From NCBI RefSeq assembly GCF_029891735.1, contig NZ_JANQDH010000106.1:1-64000 (forward strand): a stretch of 64,000 nt of DNA. Reading direction: 5' to 3'. Position 1 is the stretch's first letter; every line of letters begins with the position of its first letter. Source of the DNA: Chrysosporum bergii ANA360D (GTDB lineage Bacteria > Cyanobacteriota > Cyanobacteriia > Cyanobacteriales > Nostocaceae). The notes beneath the pieces are model-generated. The model was not told the DNA's origin, did no database searches, and saw only the letters and a program-made list of their open reading frames with translations. A program made the position numbers and the translations under genes. Shown here one piece after another: positions 7,627 to 61,365 of this stretch.

Positions 7627-8502
7627 GCCGCGTTCCTCATGCTCCTTGCAGAATCAATTACTCAAGATGTGTTTACTGCTCTTTCAATTGAGCCAGTTAA
7701 ATACCGAAAATCGGGTTTTAGGCTGATTTACCGGAAATTTTTTCGGCAGTTTTGCTCCTCTATAAGAGGATGGTGGACTGTGTTTGCAAAGTCCCAGCTA
7801 CTGCTGACTTGTGTCTATCCCAAAAATCCACCATTCCATATCAACTATGAATGTAATATGAATTTTGGCATATTTTCCGATGAAGACTTTTCCGATTGTA
7901 GCCTGTTTCACAAAAATTGCACTATTTTTGTGTATTAATCATGATGCCACCCGCCAAGGTAAGGTAAATCACCACAAAATTGTAGTTATACCCCTATTTC
8001 CTCAAAGTTTTTAGCATCCTAGTGGCGTTATCTTGTCATTCCCAGGAAAATACACCCGCATTTACATCATTTTGTGTATGATTTGCAACATTATTTAATT
8101 AGACACTCTTTTGTTAATGTTAACTTCAGCGAGAAATATTAATCCGTCCATCTTTACATTTCCTTGATAAATAGCTCAATCTTTAGATTTGCAACCAGTT
8201 TATTACACGGTAAATACAGCAAGAAACATGATGCTTTCCAGAAATTTAACTTTATTTTTGCCCAATGCCCAAACTAGGGAGTTGAGGACGTGGCGGAATA
8301 GACCCAATGGCAAACAATTAAGGTTTGGCTAATTGGTCTTATTCACACATTAGCGCACTGCTGAGGTTTCAACCCTATGAAAGTTGACAAACTGTTTTTA
8401 TTGTATACACAAATATTTTAATCAATCCTACTAAAATTTAACATTCAAAATTACAGATGTTAGCCCAATTAGGAAAAATATTCAGATGATACAGCCTAAA
8501 TA

Positions 8503-8555
8503 AGAGCGAATTTTGCCCAAGTGACTGACATTTCACCTGTTTAAGAAATGCTATA
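8503..8555 (+). repeat. TATAGC element, copy A (internally shortened)
   Basis: Shares AGCGAATTTTGCCCAAGTGA at the left and CACCTGTTTAAGAAATGCTATA-type sequence at the right with four other copies, but lacks about 50 central bases. Confidence 0.7.
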
Positions 8556-8590
8556 ATAGGGGGTTTACGCAACTGGGACAGCGATCGCCT
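8550..8590 (+). repeat. Dispersed repeat with HIP1 core, copy 1
   Basis: Contains TTACGCAACTGGGACAGCG followed by ATCGC. It matches a second copy at 44602-44640 with one substitution over 24 bases. Confidence 0.65.
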
Positions 8591-8592
8591 CC

Positions 8593-8633
8593 AAAAAAAA
8601 AGCCGTCCTAGAAGGACGAGCTTCTAATCCCAT
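8593..8633 (-). repeat. IS200/IS605 left-end-type hairpin remnant
   Basis: Hairpin CGTCCTAGAAGGACG beside an A-run and CTAATCCCAT. It is the same arrangement found at 32356, 38303 and 61001, where the last copy adjoins a tnpA remnant. Here only the end survives. Confidence 0.6.
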
Positions 8634-8641
8634 TTGCATTT

Positions 8642-8747
8642 TATAGCGAATTTTGCCCAAGTGAGGTACATCCTTATTAGCAACCAGGACTCCTACTTAT
8701 ACTGAGCGCTACAAGAATTGTATCCCACGTGTTTAATCAATGCTATA
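8642..8747 (+). repeat. TATAGC element, copy B (full length)
   Basis: 106 bp that begins TATAGCGAATTTTGCCCAAG and ends GTTTAATCAATGCTATA. The ends form a short inverted repeat (TATAGC/GCTATA). Confidence 0.75.
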
Positions 8748-8783
8748 TCTAAATTCCCGTTTAGCTGGATATTTACACAAGAT

Positions 8784-31318: not shown

Positions 31319-32347
31319 ATGAAAATTGCCGTTATTGGTGTAGGACGCTGGGGAGTACATTTATTGCGGAATTTTTTAGCACATCCCCAAGTGACTGTAG
31401 TGGCAGTAGTAGACCCCCAACCACAAAGACTGGCCGGGGTAAAGCAGCAGTTTAACTTAGAAGAAAACATATTATTAACTACTCAATGGTCAGCCTTACA
31501 GCAAATATCAGAACTGACAGCCGTAGCCATCGCCACCCCAGCAACCACCCACTATACTTTAATTAAGCAAGCCCTCAACCAGGGATACCATGTTTTGGCA
31601 GAAAAACCCCTAACTCTAGACCCGGTAGAATGTCTAGAACTTTGCCAACTGGCAGAAAAACGGCGTTTAATCCTCATGGTTGACCATACTTATTTATTTC
31701 ATCCAGCCGTTCAGCAAGGGCAAACTGTAGTTAAGGCGGGTACACTGGGTAATTTACGCTATGGCTATGCAGCAAGAACTCATTTAGGACCAGTGAGGCA
31801 AGATGTTGATGCTTTGTGGGATTTAGCCATTCATGATATTGCCATTTTTAACCACTGGCTGAGTGCAATACCTTTAAAAGTACAGGCTAAGGGGACCGTG
31901 TGGTTACAGACGGTAGAGAATAGGGAACTAACACACCCCCCATCAGGTTTGGCAGATTTAGTTTGGGTAACACTGACATATCCTAACGGGTTTGAGGCAT
32001 ATATTCACCTGTGCTGGGGAAATCCTGATAAACAGCGAAGACTGGCAATAGTGGGTAGCCGTGGTTGCTTAATTTTCGATGAAATGTCACCTTCATCACC
32101 CCTCACCCTTTTACATGGTGAGTTTCAACGTCAAGGAAATCAGTTTTTACCTGTGAATCAAAAACCAGAAGTGCTGGAATTTACCCCAGGGGAGCCATTG
32201 CAGCGAGTTTGCCATTACTTTATTCTCAGTATTATTGAGAACACCGCCCCAAACATCTCATCTGGTTGGGTAGGCACTACCTTAGTAAAGATTCTGTCTG
32301 GTCTGAGTGCATCTCTCCATCAAAGGGGCGAAACAGTAATTTTATGA
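31319..32347 (+). CDS. Gfo/Idh/MocA-family NAD(P)-dependent oxidoreductase
   Basis: 342 residues. The N-terminal Rossmann fold begins with IGVGRWGVHLLRNF and continues with the family motif AEKPLTLD (the catalytic-site Lys). The C-terminal alpha/beta domain includes DHTYLFHPAV and WDLAIHDIAIFNHWL. Members act on sugars or sugar nucleotides (C2-C3 oxidation or epimer-type steps), inositol or biliverdin-like substrates; I cannot assign this one. It is 73 bases from rnc on the same strand. Confidence 0.85.
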   Translation: MKIAVIGVGRWGVHLLRNFLAHPQVTVVAVVDPQPQRLAGVKQQFNLEENILLTTQWSALQQISELTAVAIATPATTHYTLIKQALNQGYHVLAEKPLTLDPVECLELCQLAEKRRLILMVDHTYLFHPAVQQGQTVVKAGTLGNLRYGYAARTHLGPVRQDVDALWDLAIHDIAIFNHWLSAIPLKVQAKGTVWLQTVENRELTHPPSGLADLVWVTLTYPNGFEAYIHLCWGNPDKQRRLAIVGSRGCLIFDEMSPSSPLTLLHGEFQRQGNQFLPVNQKPEVLEFTPGEPLQRVCHYFILSIIENTAPNISSGWVGTTLVKILSGLSASLHQRGETVIL

Positions 32348-32355
32348 TCAACAGA

Positions 32356-32397
32356 ATGGGATTAGAACCTGGTCCTTATAGGACGGCTTTTTTTGGT
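32356..32397. terminator. IS left-end-type hairpin acting as a probable bidirectional terminator
   Basis: ATGGGATTAGAACCTGG then GTCCTTATAGGAC and a run of Ts. It fills the 52-base gap between two convergent stop codons and matches the IS200/IS605 left-end hairpins at 38303 and 61001. Confidence 0.6.
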
Positions 32398-32399
32398 TT

Positions 32400-34382
32400 C
32401 TACTCTTGGCGTAAGCCTGGTTGAGCAAGTTTTGAAGATGAATGTAGAATCTGCGTCCCTTTAGGTCGCACAGTATCACATCCCTCTTCCAGCATTTCTT
32501 CTTCAGCAGCAACTTCTCGACGATTTAATAAGTAGCTATCAATCATGGGCATGGTAATCTTGACTGTAGTGCCTTGGTTTATACCTGCACTTTCTAAAGT
32601 AATGCTACCTCCCATCAGTTCAATTAAATTTCGGGAAATCGCTAGTCCTAGTCCTGTACCTTCTACCTTGCGTGTTGCACCCCCATCTAGCATCACGAAG
32701 GGGCGAAATAGTTTGTGCTGCTGGGCGGGTTCTATACCTAAACCTGTGTCTGTGATGCTGACAACCACTTGCAATTTGTCATGATTATATTTTGAAACAG
32801 CTGTAGCAATAGTGATGCTTCCCTCGTCGGTAAACTTAGTGGCATTACCAATAATATTAATTAGTACCTGCTTTAATTTAGCTGGATCTGCTTTTACGGG
32901 AATCAAGTTAGTACCTAAGTCAGTTTTTAACTGCAAACCTTTATTTTGCACATTAACTGATTGTAAATTAATCACTTCCAGCAGTATTTGTCGTAGATCA
33001 ATAGGTGTTGTCACTACCGAAAGTTTACCTGCTTCAATTTTGGAAATATCAAGTAAATCGTTAATAATACCCAGCAAGTGAATAGCTGTTTCATCAGCAC
33101 GTTTCAGAAAATCTATTTCTTCTTCCCGACTATCGCACAACCCATCATGAACCACACGCACACAGTTAATAATCACATTAAGTGGATTTCTCAATTCATG
33201 TGAAGTGGTGGCTAAAAACTGACTTTTAACGTGGTTAGCGGTTTTTGCCTCTTTCCAAGCAATTTCTAGTTCTTCTGCCCAGGCTTTGAGTCTCTCAACC
33301 ATTTGGTCAATTGCCTGGGCTAGTTGGTTAAACTCGCGAATTTTGAAGTTGCGGGGTACAGGTTGGGCAGCATGGTGGCTATGAAGATTCAAAGCATAGT
33401 CTCGCAGCTGTTCTAAGGGAACGGCTAAATAAGGAGCTAAATATAAAGATGCCAACAAACTAGCACCAATCAAACCAACTGTGAGAACTATGAGAATTAG
33501 TTTAATTTCTTCTAAACCTAGTAAAGCATTATCTACAGTTGTCACAGCTAACACTATCCATTTTTGCCCTTGTTCTTGTGTAGTAGGGTTAGCAATAGCC
33601 GTATAACCAACTATTAATTCTTGCCCTTGTTGAGAAAGTAAATTTATTGAGTTACTTTTTCCAGCCATGGCATTTTTAACAATTTGTCGCAGTGGCAGGG
33701 CATCTGGGTCTTGTTGAATATTACTGCCCACTAACTCTGGTGATGGGTGTACCAAAATCATGCCATTTTCAGCAATTACTAGAGTAGATCCTGTTAAAGA
33801 TCCTGGCTGATTTTTCGTCTGTTTGTATAGTCCTGATTGAATACTCAATACATATAGCAGTTCCCCAGTGCGATTATACACTGGGGCAGATAGCAGCAAT
33901 TGCAATTGATTGTCTGTATTTTTTTTACCTGTGGTTCCAGCCTGGGCAGGTAAGATTGTTTTGATATCAATTTTTTCTTTTTCAGAAATAACTAATCTAC
34001 TTTCGCTAATTTCTTGCTTACCACAGCTACTAGCGATGATTTTACGGCTTTGCAGATCAGTTAATTCCAGGCACTCTACCTGGGTGGGCAATTTTTTGGC
34101 AAGACTAGTGAGATATTGTTCTACTTCTGAAGACGAACCAGATTGAGTAACTGTTGTTTGACTTACAGTTAGTAAAAGAGTTTTGAGGGTGGCAATGGCA
34201 GTGGTAATTTTTTCACCTTTTAAAATAGCGCTTTCTGTGAGATTTTGACGCGCAGTTTTCAATAGGCTGGACCTTGCTTTATTCAAGGCCACAACCTCCC
34301 CTAGCAATAACACAGGGACAAAAACAAGTAAAATTCTTGTTAATAAAATACGTCGAAAGGATGATTGACGAGCCTTAGCCAT
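32400..34382 (-). CDS. Membrane sensor histidine kinase (Cache-HAMP-HisKA-HATPase)
   Basis: About 660 residues. A transmembrane helix near residue 20 (ILLVFVPVLLLGEVVAL) and a second near 300 (LILIVLTVGLIGASLLASLY) bracket a periplasmic dCache-like sensor domain. A HAMP linker follows (PLEQLRDYALNLHSH), then a long coiled coil, the phospho-acceptor box TTSHELRNPLNVI, and the ATPase N, G1 and G2 boxes (IGNATKFTDEG, DTGLGIEP, GTGLGLAIS). The kinase is complete and should autophosphorylate in response to an external small ligand; the ligand is unknown and no regulator is adjacent. The frame is open to 34430, but the ATG at 34382 (MAKARQSSF) gives a standard positively charged N-terminus. Confidence 0.9.
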   Translation of the reverse strand: MAKARQSSFRRILLTRILLVFVPVLLLGEVVALNKARSSLLKTARQNLTESAILKGEKITTAIATLKTLLLTVSQTTVTQSGSSSEVEQYLTSLAKKLPTQVECLELTDLQSRKIIASSCGKQEISESRLVISEKEKIDIKTILPAQAGTTGKKNTDNQLQLLLSAPVYNRTGELLYVLSIQSGLYKQTKNQPGSLTGSTLVIAENGMILVHPSPELVGSNIQQDPDALPLRQIVKNAMAGKSNSINLLSQQGQELIVGYTAIANPTTQEQGQKWIVLAVTTVDNALLGLEEIKLILIVLTVGLIGASLLASLYLAPYLAVPLEQLRDYALNLHSHHAAQPVPRNFKIREFNQLAQAIDQMVERLKAWAEELEIAWKEAKTANHVKSQFLATTSHELRNPLNVIINCVRVVHDGLCDSREEEIDFLKRADETAIHLLGIINDLLDISKIEAGKLSVVTTPIDLRQILLEVINLQSVNVQNKGLQLKTDLGTNLIPVKADPAKLKQVLINIIGNATKFTDEGSITIATAVSKYNHDKLQVVVSITDTGLGIEPAQQHKLFRPFVMLDGGATRKVEGTGLGLAISRNLIELMGGSITLESAGINQGTTVKITMPMIDSYLLNRREVAAEEEMLEEGCDTVRPKGTQILHSSSKLAQPGLRQE

Positions 34383-34798
34383 TGAGTATCTCACTTCGCA
34401 TCTGTAAACCACAAATGTAACGATATGCAATTAGAATAGCTCCCAGAGATATTCTGCTAAGTGTAATCGGGTGTTTTTGTCAAGTGGCAAAAGTGGTAAA
34501 TATTGAAAATATACCGGGAATCAGCTATACCAAAGTTCATATGGGGTAGATGTGAAAGTAACCGGTGTTGCATATGGATACACTTTAAAAATATAGGACT
34601 ATCGCGGCTGGAATTGAAGAGTGGATAGATAATTGATCATGAAAAAATAAAATCATACAACAGATTACAATGCCTGAAGGTTAGAGCCGCTGAGATTGCT
34701 GCTTAGTTTTTTTTGTTAATAGTAGCTTACAGGGAAATATTTTTTTCCATTCAATCCACTGACAACCAAAATCTCAAGACTATCCCACTAACCAAATT
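34383..34798. other. Gene-free interval, divergent promoters
   Basis: About 416 bp of AT-rich sequence between the divergent kinase and reductase genes. I see no repeats, hairpins or open frames of note. Confidence 0.6.
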
Positions 34799-35555: not shown

Positions 35556-35580
35556 CTCATTAGTCATTGGTCATCAGTCA
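35556..35580. repeat. Short heptamer repeat (STRR-like) at a gene start
   Basis: CTCATTAGTCATTGGTCATC, the reverse-strand version of the repeat at 11024-11055. It overlaps the possible TTG start of the downstream gene. Confidence 0.55.
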
Positions 35581-35581
35581 G

Positions 35582-36766
35582 GTGGAACACATCAAACCTC
35601 GCTACTCTAGCCTTTGGGCTAACCAAATCGCACAAGTACCCCAAGATGCCTGGGATGCTTTAGCAATGCCACTCAAAACCCCTTTTTTAGAGTGGGACTG
35701 GCTAAATCATCTGGAAACGTCCCAGAGTGCTATAGCTAAAACCGGTTGGTTACCAAATCATTTAACCCTTTGGCGAGACCAGAGTTTAATTGCGGTGGCT
35801 CCACTTTATTTAAAAGGACATAGTTATGGTGAATTCGTTTTTGATCACCAATGGGCAGAATTAGCTCATCGCATAGGAGTACAGTATTATCCAAAGTTGC
35901 TGGGAATGACACCATTTACCCCGGCTGAAGGTTATCGCTTCTTAATTGCCCCGGGGGAAGATGAAAATGAAATTACAGCCATAATGCTGCATGAAATAGA
36001 TTCTTTCTGCATTAAGCATGGCGTTTCTGGTTGTCATTTTCTTTATGTTGATCCCCAATGGCGAGCAGTGCTAGAACGGCAAGGTTTTAGCACTTGGTTA
36101 CACCACAGCTACATTTGGGAAAATCTCGCTTTTAAAACTTTTGATGATTATTTAAAAATATTCAATGCTAATCAGCGCCGTAATATTAAGCGGGAACGCA
36201 AAGCTATAGAAAAAGTTGGTTTACGACTACAACCATTGACTGGTGATGCTATTCCTCAGTCTTTATTTTCTTTAATGTATCATTTCTATGCTGACACTTG
36301 TGATAAGTTTGGCTGGTGGGGTAGTAAATATCTGACTAAGCAATTTTTTGAGCAGTTACATAGTAATTATCGCCATCGAGTACTGTTCTTTGCTGCATAT
36401 ACAGAACAAGACCAACGCCAACCCCTAGGTATGTCCTTTTGTTTGTTTAAAGGCGATCGCTTATATGGACGCTATTGGGGCAGTTTTCAGGAAATAGATT
36501 GTTTACATTTCAACGCTTGCTATTATACACCCATTGAGTGGGCGATCGCTCACAATATCCAAAGCTTCGACCCTGGGGCCGGGGGAAGACACAAAAAACG
36601 TCGGGGTTTTCCGGCTATGCCTAATCACAGTTTACACCGCTTTTACAATAATCGTTTAGAACAAATTCTTTGTCGTTATATTCAAGAGGTCAATCAACTA
36701 GAAGAGGAAGAAATGGCAGCTATTAATGAGGATTTGCCATTTCACCAGGAAGGAAGAAATAACTAA
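35582..36766 (+). CDS. FemAB/GNAT-like protein (peptidoglycan biosynthesis/recognition family, DUF482)
   Basis: About 394 residues with the double acyl-transferase-like fold of the COG3146 family. Recognisable parts are SCHFLYVDP-like GCHFLYVDPQW, the NQRRNIKRERK stretch after an aromatic-rich region, and the C-terminal motif FDPGAGGRHKKRRGFPA. The family is named for similarity to FemAB peptidoglycan bridge enzymes; the true substrate is unproved. The frame opens with a TTG at 35567 inside the heptamer repeat; the GTG at 35582 (VEHIKPRYSS) is an equally possible start and is given here. A HIP1 site lies within the gene. Confidence 0.82.
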   Translation: MEHIKPRYSSLWANQIAQVPQDAWDALAMPLKTPFLEWDWLNHLETSQSAIAKTGWLPNHLTLWRDQSLIAVAPLYLKGHSYGEFVFDHQWAELAHRIGVQYYPKLLGMTPFTPAEGYRFLIAPGEDENEITAIMLHEIDSFCIKHGVSGCHFLYVDPQWRAVLERQGFSTWLHHSYIWENLAFKTFDDYLKIFNANQRRNIKRERKAIEKVGLRLQPLTGDAIPQSLFSLMYHFYADTCDKFGWWGSKYLTKQFFEQLHSNYRHRVLFFAAYTEQDQRQPLGMSFCLFKGDRLYGRYWGSFQEIDCLHFNACYYTPIEWAIAHNIQSFDPGAGGRHKKRRGFPAMPNHSLHRFYNNRLEQILCRYIQEVNQLEEEEMAAINEDLPFHQEGRNN

Positions 36767-36830: not shown

Positions 36831-37901
36831 CTATTTACCCCCAGAATCAGACTCACGACTGGGAATGGTCTCAACAACTACCTGACCAGGGGTGATAAGT
36901 TCCCCTTCCGTAGTAGGTGTTTGGAGGGCTTGTAGTTCTTGTTCAGCAATTAAATCAGTGATTTGCTGCTTTAATTTCTCAATTTTCTCGGCTTCCTGCA
37001 ATTCCCCTTGCAACTGGTATGCTGTGTAGGCGCGGTTTAATAATTGGTTGGCTTTTTTCAGTTCACCAAGGTTATATAAAAGCACTCCTAAGTTATAGTA
37101 GGCGGAGGCATTTTCAGGATTTTGGCGAATGGCTTGGCGATATACAGCTATGGCTTGTTCCGGGTCACCTTGAATTACTTTCAGACTTCCCAGGTTATTA
37201 TAGGCTGTATCATTTTTGGGATCAATTTCTATGACTTGCTTATAAGCGGCAATGGCTTCTTCTATTTTTCCTTGTCCCTGACGGGTGATGGCTAGGTTAA
37301 ATTGAGCCTTGGCGTTACTTCTATCTAATTTAATCGCTTCTTGGTATGCAGCGATGGCTTCTTCAATTCTTCCTAGTTCGTATAATGCTAATCCTAAATT
37401 ATAGTGAGTTGCTGTTTTATTGGGGTCGATAACTAATGCTTGTCTATAAGCGGTGATGGCTGCTTCTTTTTGTCCCTGTCGGTGCAAAGCTAACCCCAAG
37501 TTATAATAGGTTTCACCCAAATTAGGATTAATTCTCACCGCCTCTCCATATTCTTGCACTGCTACATCTAGGCGATTTTGCATCAGGAGAATATTACCTA
37601 AATAATGCCTTGCCAGAGCCAGGTTAGGATCTCTCTGCAAAGCCAGACGAAAGGCAGACTCCGCCCCTTGTAAATCATTACGGTTATAGCGTGTGACTCC
37701 TTGCTGGTAAAGACTAGCTGTTTTTAAATCCTGAGAAATTGCTTGTTCTGCTAGTAGCTTGTTTTCTGATAATTGCATGATTGCAGGCGCAGCACACAAC
37801 AAACAAGCCATAGCCGTACTCAGAACTCCTAAATACTGCTGCTTGTTGATGGCTCCATGGAACCAGGAAAATTTCTGGCGAATTCGATGCTGTTTATACA
37901 T
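36831..37901 (-). CDS. TPR-repeat protein with N-terminal membrane segment
   Basis: About 356 residues. A hydrophobic segment near residues 20-40 (YLGVLSTAMACLLCAAPAIM) suggests export or anchoring. Seven consecutive TPR units follow (for example AVQEYGEAVRINPN, AITAYRQALVIDPN, AIAAYQEAIKLDRS, AIAAYKQVIEIDPK, AIAVYRQAIRQNPE), then a Glu-rich coiled coil. It is a protein-interaction scaffold. The ATG at 37919 lies inside a dispersed palindromic repeat, so I prefer the ATG at 37901 (MYKQHRIRQKF). Confidence 0.82.
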   Translation of the reverse strand: MYKQHRIRQKFSWFHGAINKQQYLGVLSTAMACLLCAAPAIMQLSENKLLAEQAISQDLKTASLYQQGVTRYNRNDLQGAESAFRLALQRDPNLALARHYLGNILLMQNRLDVAVQEYGEAVRINPNLGETYYNLGLALHRQGQKEAAITAYRQALVIDPNKTATHYNLGLALYELGRIEEAIAAYQEAIKLDRSNAKAQFNLAITRQGQGKIEEAIAAYKQVIEIDPKNDTAYNNLGSLKVIQGDPEQAIAVYRQAIRQNPENASAYYNLGVLLYNLGELKKANQLLNRAYTAYQLQGELQEAEKIEKLKQQITDLIAEQELQALQTPTTEGELITPGQVVVETIPSRESDSGGK

Positions 37902-37907
37902 AAGTGG

Positions 37908-37930
37908 TAGTGCGAGCATCTAGCTCGCTG
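37908..37930. repeat. GAGCATC-TGCTCGC palindromic repeat, copy at the TPR gene start
   Basis: GTGCGAGCATCTAGCTCGCT. It is related to copies at 1683-1704, 38266-38290, 42424-42444 and 58244-58264, and it supplies the first ATG of the TPR gene frame. Confidence 0.6.
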
Positions 37931-37954
37931 CTATTCTGTAGTTTTTGAGAACTC

Positions 37955-38127
37955 TTTGACACTCCCCGCCTTCAAGTCAGAATTTGCTCGAATTCAGGTT
38001 TTCACCAACCAGAGTAGAGATTCCAGGGATCCCCTCCCCTAGTTGGCTTGGCAAGATTTAAATATTTACTGCTAAATATTGACTTCTGCATTTACATCTC
38101 TTTGAAGTTCGCAACCACAGTTACATT
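37955..38127 (-). pseudogene. tnpB 3' remnant plus IS605-type right end
   Basis: On the minus strand it reads CNCGCELQRDVNAEVNI, the second zinc-finger pair and the RuvC-III Asp region of TnpB, then stop codons, then a right-end hairpin and GGCGGGGAGTGTCAAA. Nucleotide similarity with the remnant at 58917-59375 is clear over the RDxNA region. All upstream parts are lost; copy C of the TATAGC element abuts the broken edge. Confidence 0.75.
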
Positions 38128-38229
38128 TATAGCATTTGTTAAACAGGTGACATACAAATGTAAATAATCGTCTTGTAGCACCAGTCCTGCTTGCTAAGAA
38201 TGTACCTCATTTGGGCAAAATTCGCTATA
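38128..38229 (-). repeat. TATAGC element, copy C
   Basis: A 102-bp copy on the minus strand with complete TATAGC/GCTATA ends. It is fused to the truncated tnpB remnant on its left. Confidence 0.75.
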
Positions 38230-38302
38230 AGAGCATTTTTTGAATTGTAATTGTTCAAGTTTCCTAGTGGTGTGAGCATCTTGCTCGCTGTTGACCAAAA
38301 GA

Positions 38303-38345
38303 ATGGGATACAAGCCCCGTCCTTCTAGGACGGCTTTTCTTGATT
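38303..38345 (-). mobile_element. IS200/IS605 left-end remnant overlapping the queA 3' end
   Basis: Minus-strand order: codons for YIKNQEKPS, stop TAG inside hairpin CCGTCCTAGAAGGACGG, then GGGCTTGTATCCCATTC. This is the same order as the tnpA remnant at 61001-61108 (YIQNLEKPS, TAG, hairpin, AACCCAT). Confidence 0.7.
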
Positions 38346-39500
38346 TTTGATATATTCTTCTCTGGCTTCTGGAAGAATTAGCATGGCATCACCGAAGGAA
38401 TAAAAACGATATTTCCAGGCGATCGCTTGTTGGTATATATTTAATAAACGTTCTCTACCAATCAACGCACTCACCAACATCAGTAAACTAGAACGTGGTA
38501 GGTGAAAATTGGTAATTAAACCATCTATTACCCGCCATTGGTAACGGGGATATATAAATAAGTCTGTTTTGCCACAAAATGGTTGTAATTGGTCGGTTTG
38601 GGCTGCTGCTTCCAAGGCACGGACTACCGTTGTACCCACGGCAATAATTCTACCCCCAGCTGCTTTAGTGGCGCGGATTTGTTCTACTGTTGCTGAGGGA
38701 ACGGAGATCCATTCTTCGTGCATCTGGTGGCTACTTACATCTTCTATTTCCACAGGGCGAAAAGTGCCTACGCCAACGTGTAGAGTAATGTAGGCTTGAT
38801 TAATACCGCTTTTTTGCAAGTTTGACAGTAGTTCTGGGGTGAAATGTAATCCAGCTGTGGGGGCGGCTATAGCTCCTGGGTTTTGGGCATAAACTGTTTG
38901 ATACTGTTCATCAGCCGCAGTTGATGTTGTGATGTAGGGAGGTAGGGGTATTTCACCGAATTGATCTAAGATTTCTACCAAGGGTTTTCCTTCAGGAACA
39001 TGAAATTCTAATACCCGCCCGGATGTGGCTGCATCTGTTTCTACTACTGTGGCGATTAATTCTTGGGGGAGTGGCTCAGAGTTTTGCTCTTCCTTCATTC
39101 CCTTTCCCCTGGGGGCAAAAAATATTTTTGCTCCTAATTTAAAGCGTTTTCCTGGTTTAACTAAGGCTAACCAGCGATTATATCCTTTTTCTTCTAAAAG
39201 CAAAATTTCTATTTCCGCACCAGTGGTTTTACGACCATACAACCGCGCTGGAATAACTTTTGTGTCATTAATTACCAATAAGTCATTAGGGTGTAATAAC
39301 TTTGGTAGGTCTCGAAAAATGTGGTTTAAGGGTGGGGTTTCTTTCCCTGTTGTGGGGGAATTTACTACTAGTAAGCGGGAGCTATCTCTGGGAAATACAG
39401 GATTTTGAGCAATTAGTTCGGTTGGTAATGAGTAATCATATCCTGTTAGCGAACGGTCTAAATTTACCTCTTGGGTTTCTGGTGCAGAAGGTTGATTCAA
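38325..39500 (-). CDS. queA: S-adenosylmethionine:tRNA ribosyltransferase-isomerase
   Basis: Makes epoxyqueuosine in tRNA by transferring the ribosyl part of SAM. Motifs are typical: [20 protein letters not shown], the hallmark [17 protein letters not shown] and [11 protein letters not shown], and [11 protein letters not shown] near the end. After DAMLILP the protein has about 12 extra residues ([14 protein letters not shown]) that match the end of an IS200 TnpA, and the stop codon lies in the IS hairpin. For the start I choose the TTG at 39500, which has AGGA 9 bases upstream; an ATG at 39560 is also in frame but would overlap prmA by 31 bases. Confidence 0.9.
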
Positions 39501-39529
39501 GTTACTATATCCTATTTGTTCGTTTTCAG

Positions 39530-40450
39530 CTAAGAACGCCGTACATTTAAGCAACACCATTCTTTCTTTTTCCATAGGGTAGCAACAATCCAACCGTTTT
39601 GTTCTAATACATCCGCAACAGCTTTAGACTGTTCCACTAAAATACCACTAAAAATTCCCCAAGTACTTGGTTTAACGATGGTGTTCATTTCCGGTAACAC
39701 CTGAATAATTACATCAGCCAAAATATTACAGACAATACCATCTACCGGCTCATGCACCAGTTTACTAACTATATCTACACTACCTTCTGCTGTTACCAAG
39801 CTTTCTGGGCTAATGTTGTTTAAAACAAGATTACTTAAAGTTGATTGCACCGCTAACGGGTCAGTATCCACTGCGTAGACTTTTTTCGCACCCAATAGCC
39901 ATGCTGCTATTGAAAGTATACCAGAACCACAGCCAATATCAGCAATTACCAGGGGTTGATGTTTACTGCCGTTATCCACCCCATCCCATGGTAAGCCAGT
40001 TAAACGCATTTCTAGGGATTCCAAACACAGTTGGGTAGTGGGATGGTTTCCCGTACCAAAAGCTACACCAGGATCAAGACGAATTACAAGCCGTTCTGAT
40101 GTGTTGGGTGGGGGTAGCCAAGCAGGATTAATCAAGAGGCGATCGCCTATTTTTTCGGGTTTCCAGTATTGTTTCCAGCTGGTGGCCCAATCCTCCTCGT
40201 CAATTAATTCCCAATCTAAAGTAGGAACAGACAACCCCACACAAAGAGCATCTTGACGCAACCACAGGGACAGAGCCGCTAAATCTAGTAAGTGTATTTT
40301 AATTTTCGGTAAGTAACCTTTAACTAAACTGGACTTACCCTTACTTTCACTTGCTGTACCACGACAACCAAAATTTTCCAGTCGCCAAAAGATTAAATCT
40401 TCCAGCGCTGGTTCACATAAAATCTGTAGTTCCCACCAAGTGTTTGCCAT
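39530..40450 (-). CDS. prmA: Ribosomal protein L11 methyltransferase
   Basis: SAM-dependent trimethylation of ribosomal protein L11; 306 residues. The N-terminal substrate domain begins [19 protein letters not shown]. The methyltransferase domain has [19 protein letters not shown], motif [16 protein letters not shown] and the NILADVI post-motif. It ends close to queA, which lies downstream on the same strand, and probably forms a two-gene unit with it. Confidence 0.93.
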
Positions 40451-60832: not shown

Positions 60833-61365
60833 ATTTTCCTCCTATTTTCCCCCTCTACTCACCAGCTAGGTAATATTATAAGTCTATAAGTCATCTCCCA
60901 CGCCACGGTCTTCAACCAGCACTCAAGATGAAATAACATAACCTTAGCCATTTCATGTTAAAATATCTGAAAAATTAAGAATTATTCAGTTATGTAAAAA
61001 ATGGGTTGAAAACCCCGTCGTTCTACGACGGCTTTTCTAGATTCTGGATATATTTCTTCAGCACCTCAAGTGGCGCACCACCAACAGAAGACACAAAGTA
61101 ACAGAATATAAAAATGGTCGGCATGGGGCATCGGCACGACCTAAAATGGACAGGGAGTGACTGTAAGACTGTTTCGGCAGCTAGTTACTGTGAACTGTCA
61201 AGAATCACCCACCTTCAAGGTCGGTGAGTATGTCAACCTAGGAAGATACATTCTATCTTAAGTCCTCAGTTAAATTAAGCATCGTGCTGCTGAGGCAATC
61301 CCAAGAAAACCAAACAAACCAAGTCAAAACCACATCTTAACAACTAGAGAGCTTCCAAAATCATA
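60833..61365. other. Interval upstream of infC
   Basis: About 530 bp. It contains the 236-bp IS200/IS605 derivative (61001-61236). The last 130 bases should hold the infC promoter. No native gene is supported. Confidence 0.65.
61001..61236. mobile_element. 236-bp internal-deletion derivative of an IS200/IS605 element
   Basis: Left: ATGGGTT, hairpin CCGTCGTTCTACGACGG and, on the minus strand, a tnpA 3' fragment reading YFVSSVGGAPLEVLKKYIQ, NLEKPS, stop (61023-61108). Right: a right-end motif AGAATCACCCACCTTCAAGG then TCGGTGAGTATGTCAA on the plus strand. Nearly all of tnpA and tnpB is gone but both ends remain, so it could be moved by an intact relative. Confidence 0.75.

Follow-up and report, generated by a model that had tools for sequence, protein, structure and literature searches.

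The C-terminus and stop codon of a cyanobacterial queA gene come from an IS200/IS605 transposase gene

We identified a queA gene that ends in the last codons and the stop codon of an IS200/IS605 transposase gene. The gene lies in a 64,000-nucleotide stretch of the Chrysosporum bergii ANA360D genome (the window; its source assembly is a 120-contig draft) and encodes S-adenosylmethionine:tRNA ribosyltransferase-isomerase. As read from the sequence, its C-terminal tail (YIKNQEKPS) is letter for letter the C-terminus of the transposase TnpA and its stop is the tnpA stop, because matching element left ends (LEs) with tnpA ends elsewhere encode Y1_Tnp proteins ending in EKPS. We consider it highly probable (about 0.9) that an element inserted into the spacer beside queA and that a later deletion fused queA in frame to tnpA, leaving the enzyme core intact and adding a tail that is probably neutral. 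It is firm that the tail and stop derive from the element and that the other queA genes compared lack them, and so is the gene order; insertion probably preceded deletion.

The features at the site are:

38325-39593, minus strand: queA, a 422-residue open reading frame from TTG, with a further ATG at 39575
38325-38360, minus strand: element-derived queA end (junction codon 412, codons 413-422 and TAG stop), recognised by identity to TnpA C-termini in other genomes and missing from 109 other queA loci
38296-38359, plus strand: IS200/IS605 LE relic with its outer end at 38296, a hairpin and the last tnpA codons, with 94-98% identity across 61-68 bp to the closest LE and tnpA ends in other Nostocaceae
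38291-38295, plus strand: TTGAC, presumed target/cleavage pentanucleotide beside the LE, from pentanucleotide counts and analogy to the TTGAT of ISDra2
38317-38333, plus strand: LE hairpin CCGTCC...GGACGG, followed by CTTTTCTTGATTTTT, from a terminator scan; it holds the tnpA/queA stop
36831-37919, minus strand: TPR-repeat protein gene (Pfam TPR), the usual downstream neighbour of queA

The QueA protein has a complete Queuosine_synth domain (Pfam accession PF02547, E 9.6e-135, residues 50-406, profile positions 2-322 of 322) and its core is intact. The tail lies outside the domain, because the domain stops at residue 406. Native queA sequence reaches residue 411 (38361), and alignment places the inner cut of the LE at about 38359/38360, where it joins queA codon 411/412. 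Window positions 38291-38359 consist of the LE and the tnpA 3' end and contain the last ~10 queA codons, the TAG stop (38325-38327, inside the hairpin) and the CCGTCC/GGACGG hairpin itself, which gives the LE a subterminal imperfect hairpin. The original prediction had placed the element-derived sequence at 38303-38400, a span that is slightly off: the element part (plus strand) is 38291-38359, and 38361-38400 (minus strand) is native queA. The LE extends beyond queA into the queA-TPR spacer, because its outer end lies at 38296, after the TTGAC and 29 bp past the queA stop. A 20-base hairpin pattern allowing up to three mismatches occurs four times in the window, against 0.01 expected. Only ten TnpA codons are left, and reading from 38359 towards queA showed no right end. 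What the site holds is a dead fragment of an IS200/IS605 sequence and not an element.

Related LEs are numerous in the C. bergii genome. With 38290-38400 as query, 40 of 58 first-look candidate places were scored, the queA site included, and all 40 match at E <= 1.1e-4. Sorted by eye, type A copies match about bases 1-49 to 1-57 at 80-100% identity (100% for L031, for example), and many of them reach right-end-like sequence within 200 bp with no tnpA. Type B copies match about bases 9-71 at 78-88% and carry a tnpA 3' end after the hairpin. They include the copy to which the original prediction had compared the queA end:

60996-61059, plus strand: LE and tnpA 3' end of another subfamily, from an own-genome match

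The likeness between the two is real and much greater than chance would give (bases 9-71 of the query, 83%, E = 3.3e-11), and the frame at 61023-61124 does end in KKYIQNLEKPS. By eye, 60996-61250 is an internally deleted mini-element, in which a type-B LE and a tnpA 3' remnant are joined straight to a right end that looks like the 3' portion of a TnpB guide RNA. The queA copy has a type-A outer end, its first 49 bases being 100% identical to a copy on contig C42, together with a tnpA 3' end; no other copy read in this genome (40 scored of 58 candidates) shows this combination. The genome has 18 Y1_Tnp matches, the ends of which were read for part of them.

The combination is frequent in other Nostocaceae. 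We searched 217 genomes of the family, C. bergii included, and 192 gave a match at E <= 0.001. The best LE and tnpA matches are in G034 (97% over bases 2-68) and G024 (98% over bases 8-68), and further matches at 94% are found in G003 (bases 3-70), G131 and G146. Among the matches listed, more than 40 genomes have one that reaches base 65 or beyond, and tnpA-bearing matches mostly stop at query base 65-70, with three reaching base 81 at 83-89%. We considered a recurrent internal breakpoint at LE base ~65-70 and rejected it: the alignments stop there since the query becomes queA, and the near-identical G233 copies L182 and L186 run on into tnpA, only L159 being truncated. In G148, query bases 64-111 alone match at 94%, which corresponds to the native queA part without the LE.

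Among 29 loci read, 21 have a frame on the tnpA strand ending in GG(A/V)P...EKPS or a near variant, four have only a short stub ending in EKPS (including the two best, G034 and G024, where tnpA is broken) and four have no EKPS-type frame on that strand. All three LE-ending open reading frames tested (129-133 residues) match Y1_Tnp (Pfam accession PF01797): L164 at 2.9e-35, L050 at 1e-36 and L152 at 3.6e-37. The LE of L164 and L152 is of the type nearest to the queA copy, and that of L050 is of the 61-kb type. Elements sharing this LE encode a Y1 (HUH) transposase, TnpA, and the fragment is of IS200/IS605 origin. The proposal that the tail and stop come from an IS200/IS605 tnpA 3' end and LE is therefore borne out by the 94-98% matches in relatives and their Y1_Tnp reading frames. 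The 61-kb subfamily, which had been named as the source, is only 83% identical, and a closer subfamily exists whose tnpA-bearing copies, among those read, are all in other genomes. Judged from these comparisons, the parent of the queA-site fragment would be a subfamily related to the 61-kb one and known only from other genera, because no tnpA-bearing copy of it is among the 40 own copies scored.

We compared 109 other queA loci (102 distinct matched segments), 29 from one search, in which 49 of 78 other matching genomes yielded no locus, and the best 80 of 573 from another. Some genomes occur in both sets, and 29 of the 109 loci are distant and non-cyanobacterial, mostly from Lachnospiraceae and relatives. 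QueA C-termini elsewhere end near LPEAR; past FGDAM(L/F)I the proteins either end at once or carry a short tail that varies by lineage. The original prediction had pointed to the same tail in other QueA proteins as the critical comparison: YIKNQEKPS ends none of the 109, and a search of their loci with the 70-bp LE gave nothing at E <= 1e-3. It had also called for a comparison of QueA ends in close relatives. In G001, the sole other species of the genus compared, QueA ends in LPEGRGVIS, with no hairpin of the kind seen here in the 80 bp that follow the stop.

In 60 of the 79 other loci checked, the short locus that holds queA also contains a TPR homologue, so both sides of the queA-LE junction belong together. 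No TPR homologue was found beside queA in G001 (L002), Anabaenopsis elenkinii (L072) or L008. In these three loci a homologue of window 35567-36766 directly adjoins queA. The queA-TPR spacer, projected for 60 of the 109 loci, has a median of ~120 bp, with one value (-500) being an artefact, and exceeds the 405 bp seen here in 7 of the 60. The C. bergii spacer also holds two other repeat-derived features:

38127-38230, no strand assigned: copy of a high-copy ~104-bp repeat (MITE-like), from an own-genome search with 37940-38260
37961-38130, minus strand: probable tnpB 3' remnant with its right end, belonging to a different element that faces the other way, from two own-genome matches at 74-75% (query 37-191 and 37-164)

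The ~104-bp repeat gave 190 first-look candidates in the genome, of which 40 were scored, most covering about query 188-291. It is also present at about 8480-8760, and its ends read by eye like TATAGCGAATTTTGCCC and AAATGCTATA. We take 37961-38130 to be tnpB from a zinc-finger-like KCNCGCELQRD seen by eye. The tnpB extent first seen was reduced, as much of it (38127-38230) is the high-copy repeat. A single element made of this remnant and the LE at 38296 was rejected, since the orientation forbids it without rearrangement.

The outer boundary of the LE suggests a conserved target. In 92 distinct copies the pentanucleotide before the LE is TTGAC (42), TTTAC (18), CTGAC (13), ATGAC (11), GTGAC (4) or another (4); these counts favour conservation, as only copies whose alignment reaches that point were taken. 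NTGAC precedes the LE in 70 of the 92, and there is no conservation further out. We therefore presume that TTGAC is the target/cleavage pentanucleotide of this LE. No target duplication is expected on insertion in the IS200/IS605 family. At the one site tried, the type-A mini-element L031, 159 bp lie between TTGAC and the right flank, and in the orthologous G001 site (an 82-83% identical region) the element is missing and both flanks are present, their aligned parts 20 bp apart, with no target duplication apparent. This empty site is imperfect, with CTAAC in G001 in place of the expected TTGAC.

These observations lead us to propose the following history. A tnpA-carrying IS200/IS605 element would have entered the queA-TPR spacer 3' of TTGAC, with its left end, which contains the tnpA 3' end, directed away from queA and with tnpA in the same reading direction as queA. 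A later deletion would have removed what remained of the element and, with it, the short, dispensable end of queA itself. Codon ~411 of queA would thereby have been joined in frame to the final ten codons of tnpA, so that the transposase stop would now serve queA. The original prediction had the left end landing inside queA. Spacer insertion followed by deletion fits better, because the outer boundary and the presumed TTGAC lie outside the gene and the join falls at a truncated internal point of the element. An intermediate, with an intact element beside queA, was not found in a genus sample of one other species. The resulting QueA tail is probably neutral.

A possible but unlikely alternative is that the LE-tnpA stub arrived as a ready-made mini-element (LE, ~20 bp of tnpA, right end), so that only the right end was lost at the fusion. 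Such structures exist in the genome: L045 has an LE and ~17 bp of tnpA end joined directly to right-end-like sequence, and by eye many type-A copies lack tnpA and pass from the LE to right-end-like sequence within 200 bp. This alternative is countered by the missing right-end sequence between 38359 and queA, and by the fact that none of the own copies read combines a type-A LE with a tnpA stub.

We also considered whether the LE was kept for a function, its hairpin serving as a queA terminator, a protector of the mRNA 3' end or a block to antisense transcription, and judge this improbable. The hairpin is terminator-like on the plus strand only. Scanning 37900-38700 detected a single hairpin with T-run, on that strand, and none on the queA strand, against 0.7 sites expected in shuffles. 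The terminator that the element was said to have supplied to queA is thus not evident, because the T-run is on the opposite strand. The predicted plus-strand terminator could stop transcription into the antisense strand of queA, and the window contains a second LE:

32345-32402, plus strand: second LE relic, lying between two convergent genes and belonging to another IS200/IS605 subfamily, from an own-genome match and alignment

This LE has a similar terminator call (one found, 0.4 expected). At both LEs, however, the counts are close to shuffle values, and the queA hairpin folds only 0.95-1.7 s.d. better than shuffles (z-scores -0.95 to -1.68). The gene downstream of queA shares its strand, which leaves no obvious convergent gene to block. 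With QueA tails variable and the hairpin terminator-like on the plus strand alone, we see no sign of a functional role for the LE at queA.

An assembly artefact, in which reads from an insertion sequence end were joined to queA, is very improbable. The genome is a draft, the LE shares its 49 identical bases with another copy, and for several LE copies a contig end is no more than ~300 bp away. The tnpA-derived 38339-38359, however, is absent in its queA form from the other own copies scored, and the genes flanking the junction are neighbours in relatives. That the tail is native and resembles TnpA by convergence or chance is scarcely conceivable: QueA tails are short and variable and the unrelated QueA of L073 ends in REKPEV, but only 'EKP' is common to that tail and ours, none of 109 others shares it, and the likeness is at the DNA level (94-98%) and extends across the stop and the hairpin to 29 bp past the stop.

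We asked how often LEs end genes of the host. The own-genome survey comprised 41 copies (37 loci and the four in the window), and in two of them a long non-transposase frame ends in the LE: queA and a histidine kinase gene (32400-34430, minus strand). The stop codon of the latter (32400-32402) falls in LE-like sequence, with GGTTTCTA common to L058, and the second LE may supply it. The start of this LE overlaps the stop of a 342-residue open reading frame (31319-32347, plus strand) that looks oxidoreductase-like by eye. We do not count the kinase as a case equal to queA; it is weaker, because kinase C-termini vary in relatives and only its stop codon lies in LE-like sequence, and its capping is suggestive. 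Of the remaining copies, six are met by tnpA frames, L058 by a 74-residue frame and 32 by no frame of at least 60 residues.

In other genomes we surveyed 78 loci (L150-L227, 76 distinct), 29 from the family search and the rest from four genomes searched whole (51 matches, with one 27-base match left out). A TnpA frame of at least 70 residues meets 17 of the 76 distinct copies, no frame meets 49 and an 'other' frame meets 10. Among the ten, L190 and L194 look like frame-shifted tnpA, the frames at L179, L189 and L220 stop 7-11 nt before the LE stretch, and L223 looks by eye like what we take to be an IscB-type protein. The frames at L199, L211, L212 and L213 presumably end in a small ribbon-helix-helix-like sequence (by eye), and L211 may be a host gene cut by insertion. 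These four G233 loci have related LEs in which the ribbon-helix-helix-like 3' end (..SDVLRELIRKLK..) replaces the tnpA end. No capped host gene was confirmed among the 76 distinct copies and their ten 'other' frames.

It is quite improbable that LEs with tnpA running through the hairpin are ready-made 'stop cassettes', whose decaying stubs repeatedly cap neighbouring genes. If true, they would have capped two genes in 41 own copies, queA and, with less certainty, the histidine kinase gene.

Two further loci carry in-frame transposase sequence. L271 (C32:63807-63998) has a TnpA fragment (..EVMPDNVHLLIE..) that continues in frame into a protein (..ISIIIPTRNEAENIK..) that is glycosyltransferase-like by eye; this is possibly an N-terminal counterpart of the queA fusion. 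At L277 (C41:55013-55243), a Y1_Tnp-like stretch lies in frame within a 1568-residue open frame that is otherwise DNA methyltransferase-like by eye, with ASSVSPKQNIEKVTQ-type repeats.

The closest precedent is in Borrelia plasmids, where IS605B stem-loops occur at the 3' ends of lipoprotein genes (Delihas, 2009, PMC2775950). According to the accessible part of that paper, the Borrelia sequences likewise consist of an LE stem-loop without transposase or right end, which overlaps the host coding 3' end and continues past the stem-loop. The Borrelia overlap is 8 nt and no transposase residues were found in what the source presents, whereas the queA overlap spans ~35 nt and takes in ten TnpA codons, in frame, and their stop; the Borrelia hosts are lipoprotein genes, and queA encodes a housekeeping enzyme. 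Rickettsia palindromic elements are, per the portion available of a review on MITEs (PMC10969869), inserted in frame in coding genes, and similarly bring a short, mobile palindrome into a host protein. They are ~150-bp repeats inserted in open reading frames many times, in contrast to the single truncated insertion sequence end at the QueA C-terminus.

In Deinococcus radiodurans, ISDra2 inserts 3' of TTGAT and shares with our elements a subterminal secondary structure in the LE, a fixed pentanucleotide before it and TnpA, as far as the accessible text goes (PMC2806898). The presumed target here is of TTGAC type, the LE hairpin and the end of tnpA overlap, and the queA-site sequence is a dead fragment. 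The filamentous cyanobacterium Anabaena sp. 90 has several elements of the IS200/IS605 family and 147 MITEs, complete or partial, and the part of its genome report that was accessible describes no host-gene fusion for the IS200/IS605 elements, unlike queA (PMC3542288). A TnpA C-terminus ending a housekeeping gene was not reported in the titles and abstract openings searched, which mostly exclude the subscription literature.

The queA fusion is a real, harmless-looking genome scar, of an event kind that has precedent in the Borrelia IS605 stem-loops, as far as the available text of that source goes. It is a clear example of a dying insertion sequence giving a housekeeping enzyme its final residues and stop, and comparison shows QueA to be free to vary in the short tail past its conserved FGDAM. 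Its main weight is for annotation: the ten C-terminal residues do not belong to QueA. It also makes a case for asking how often insertion sequence ends cap host genes.
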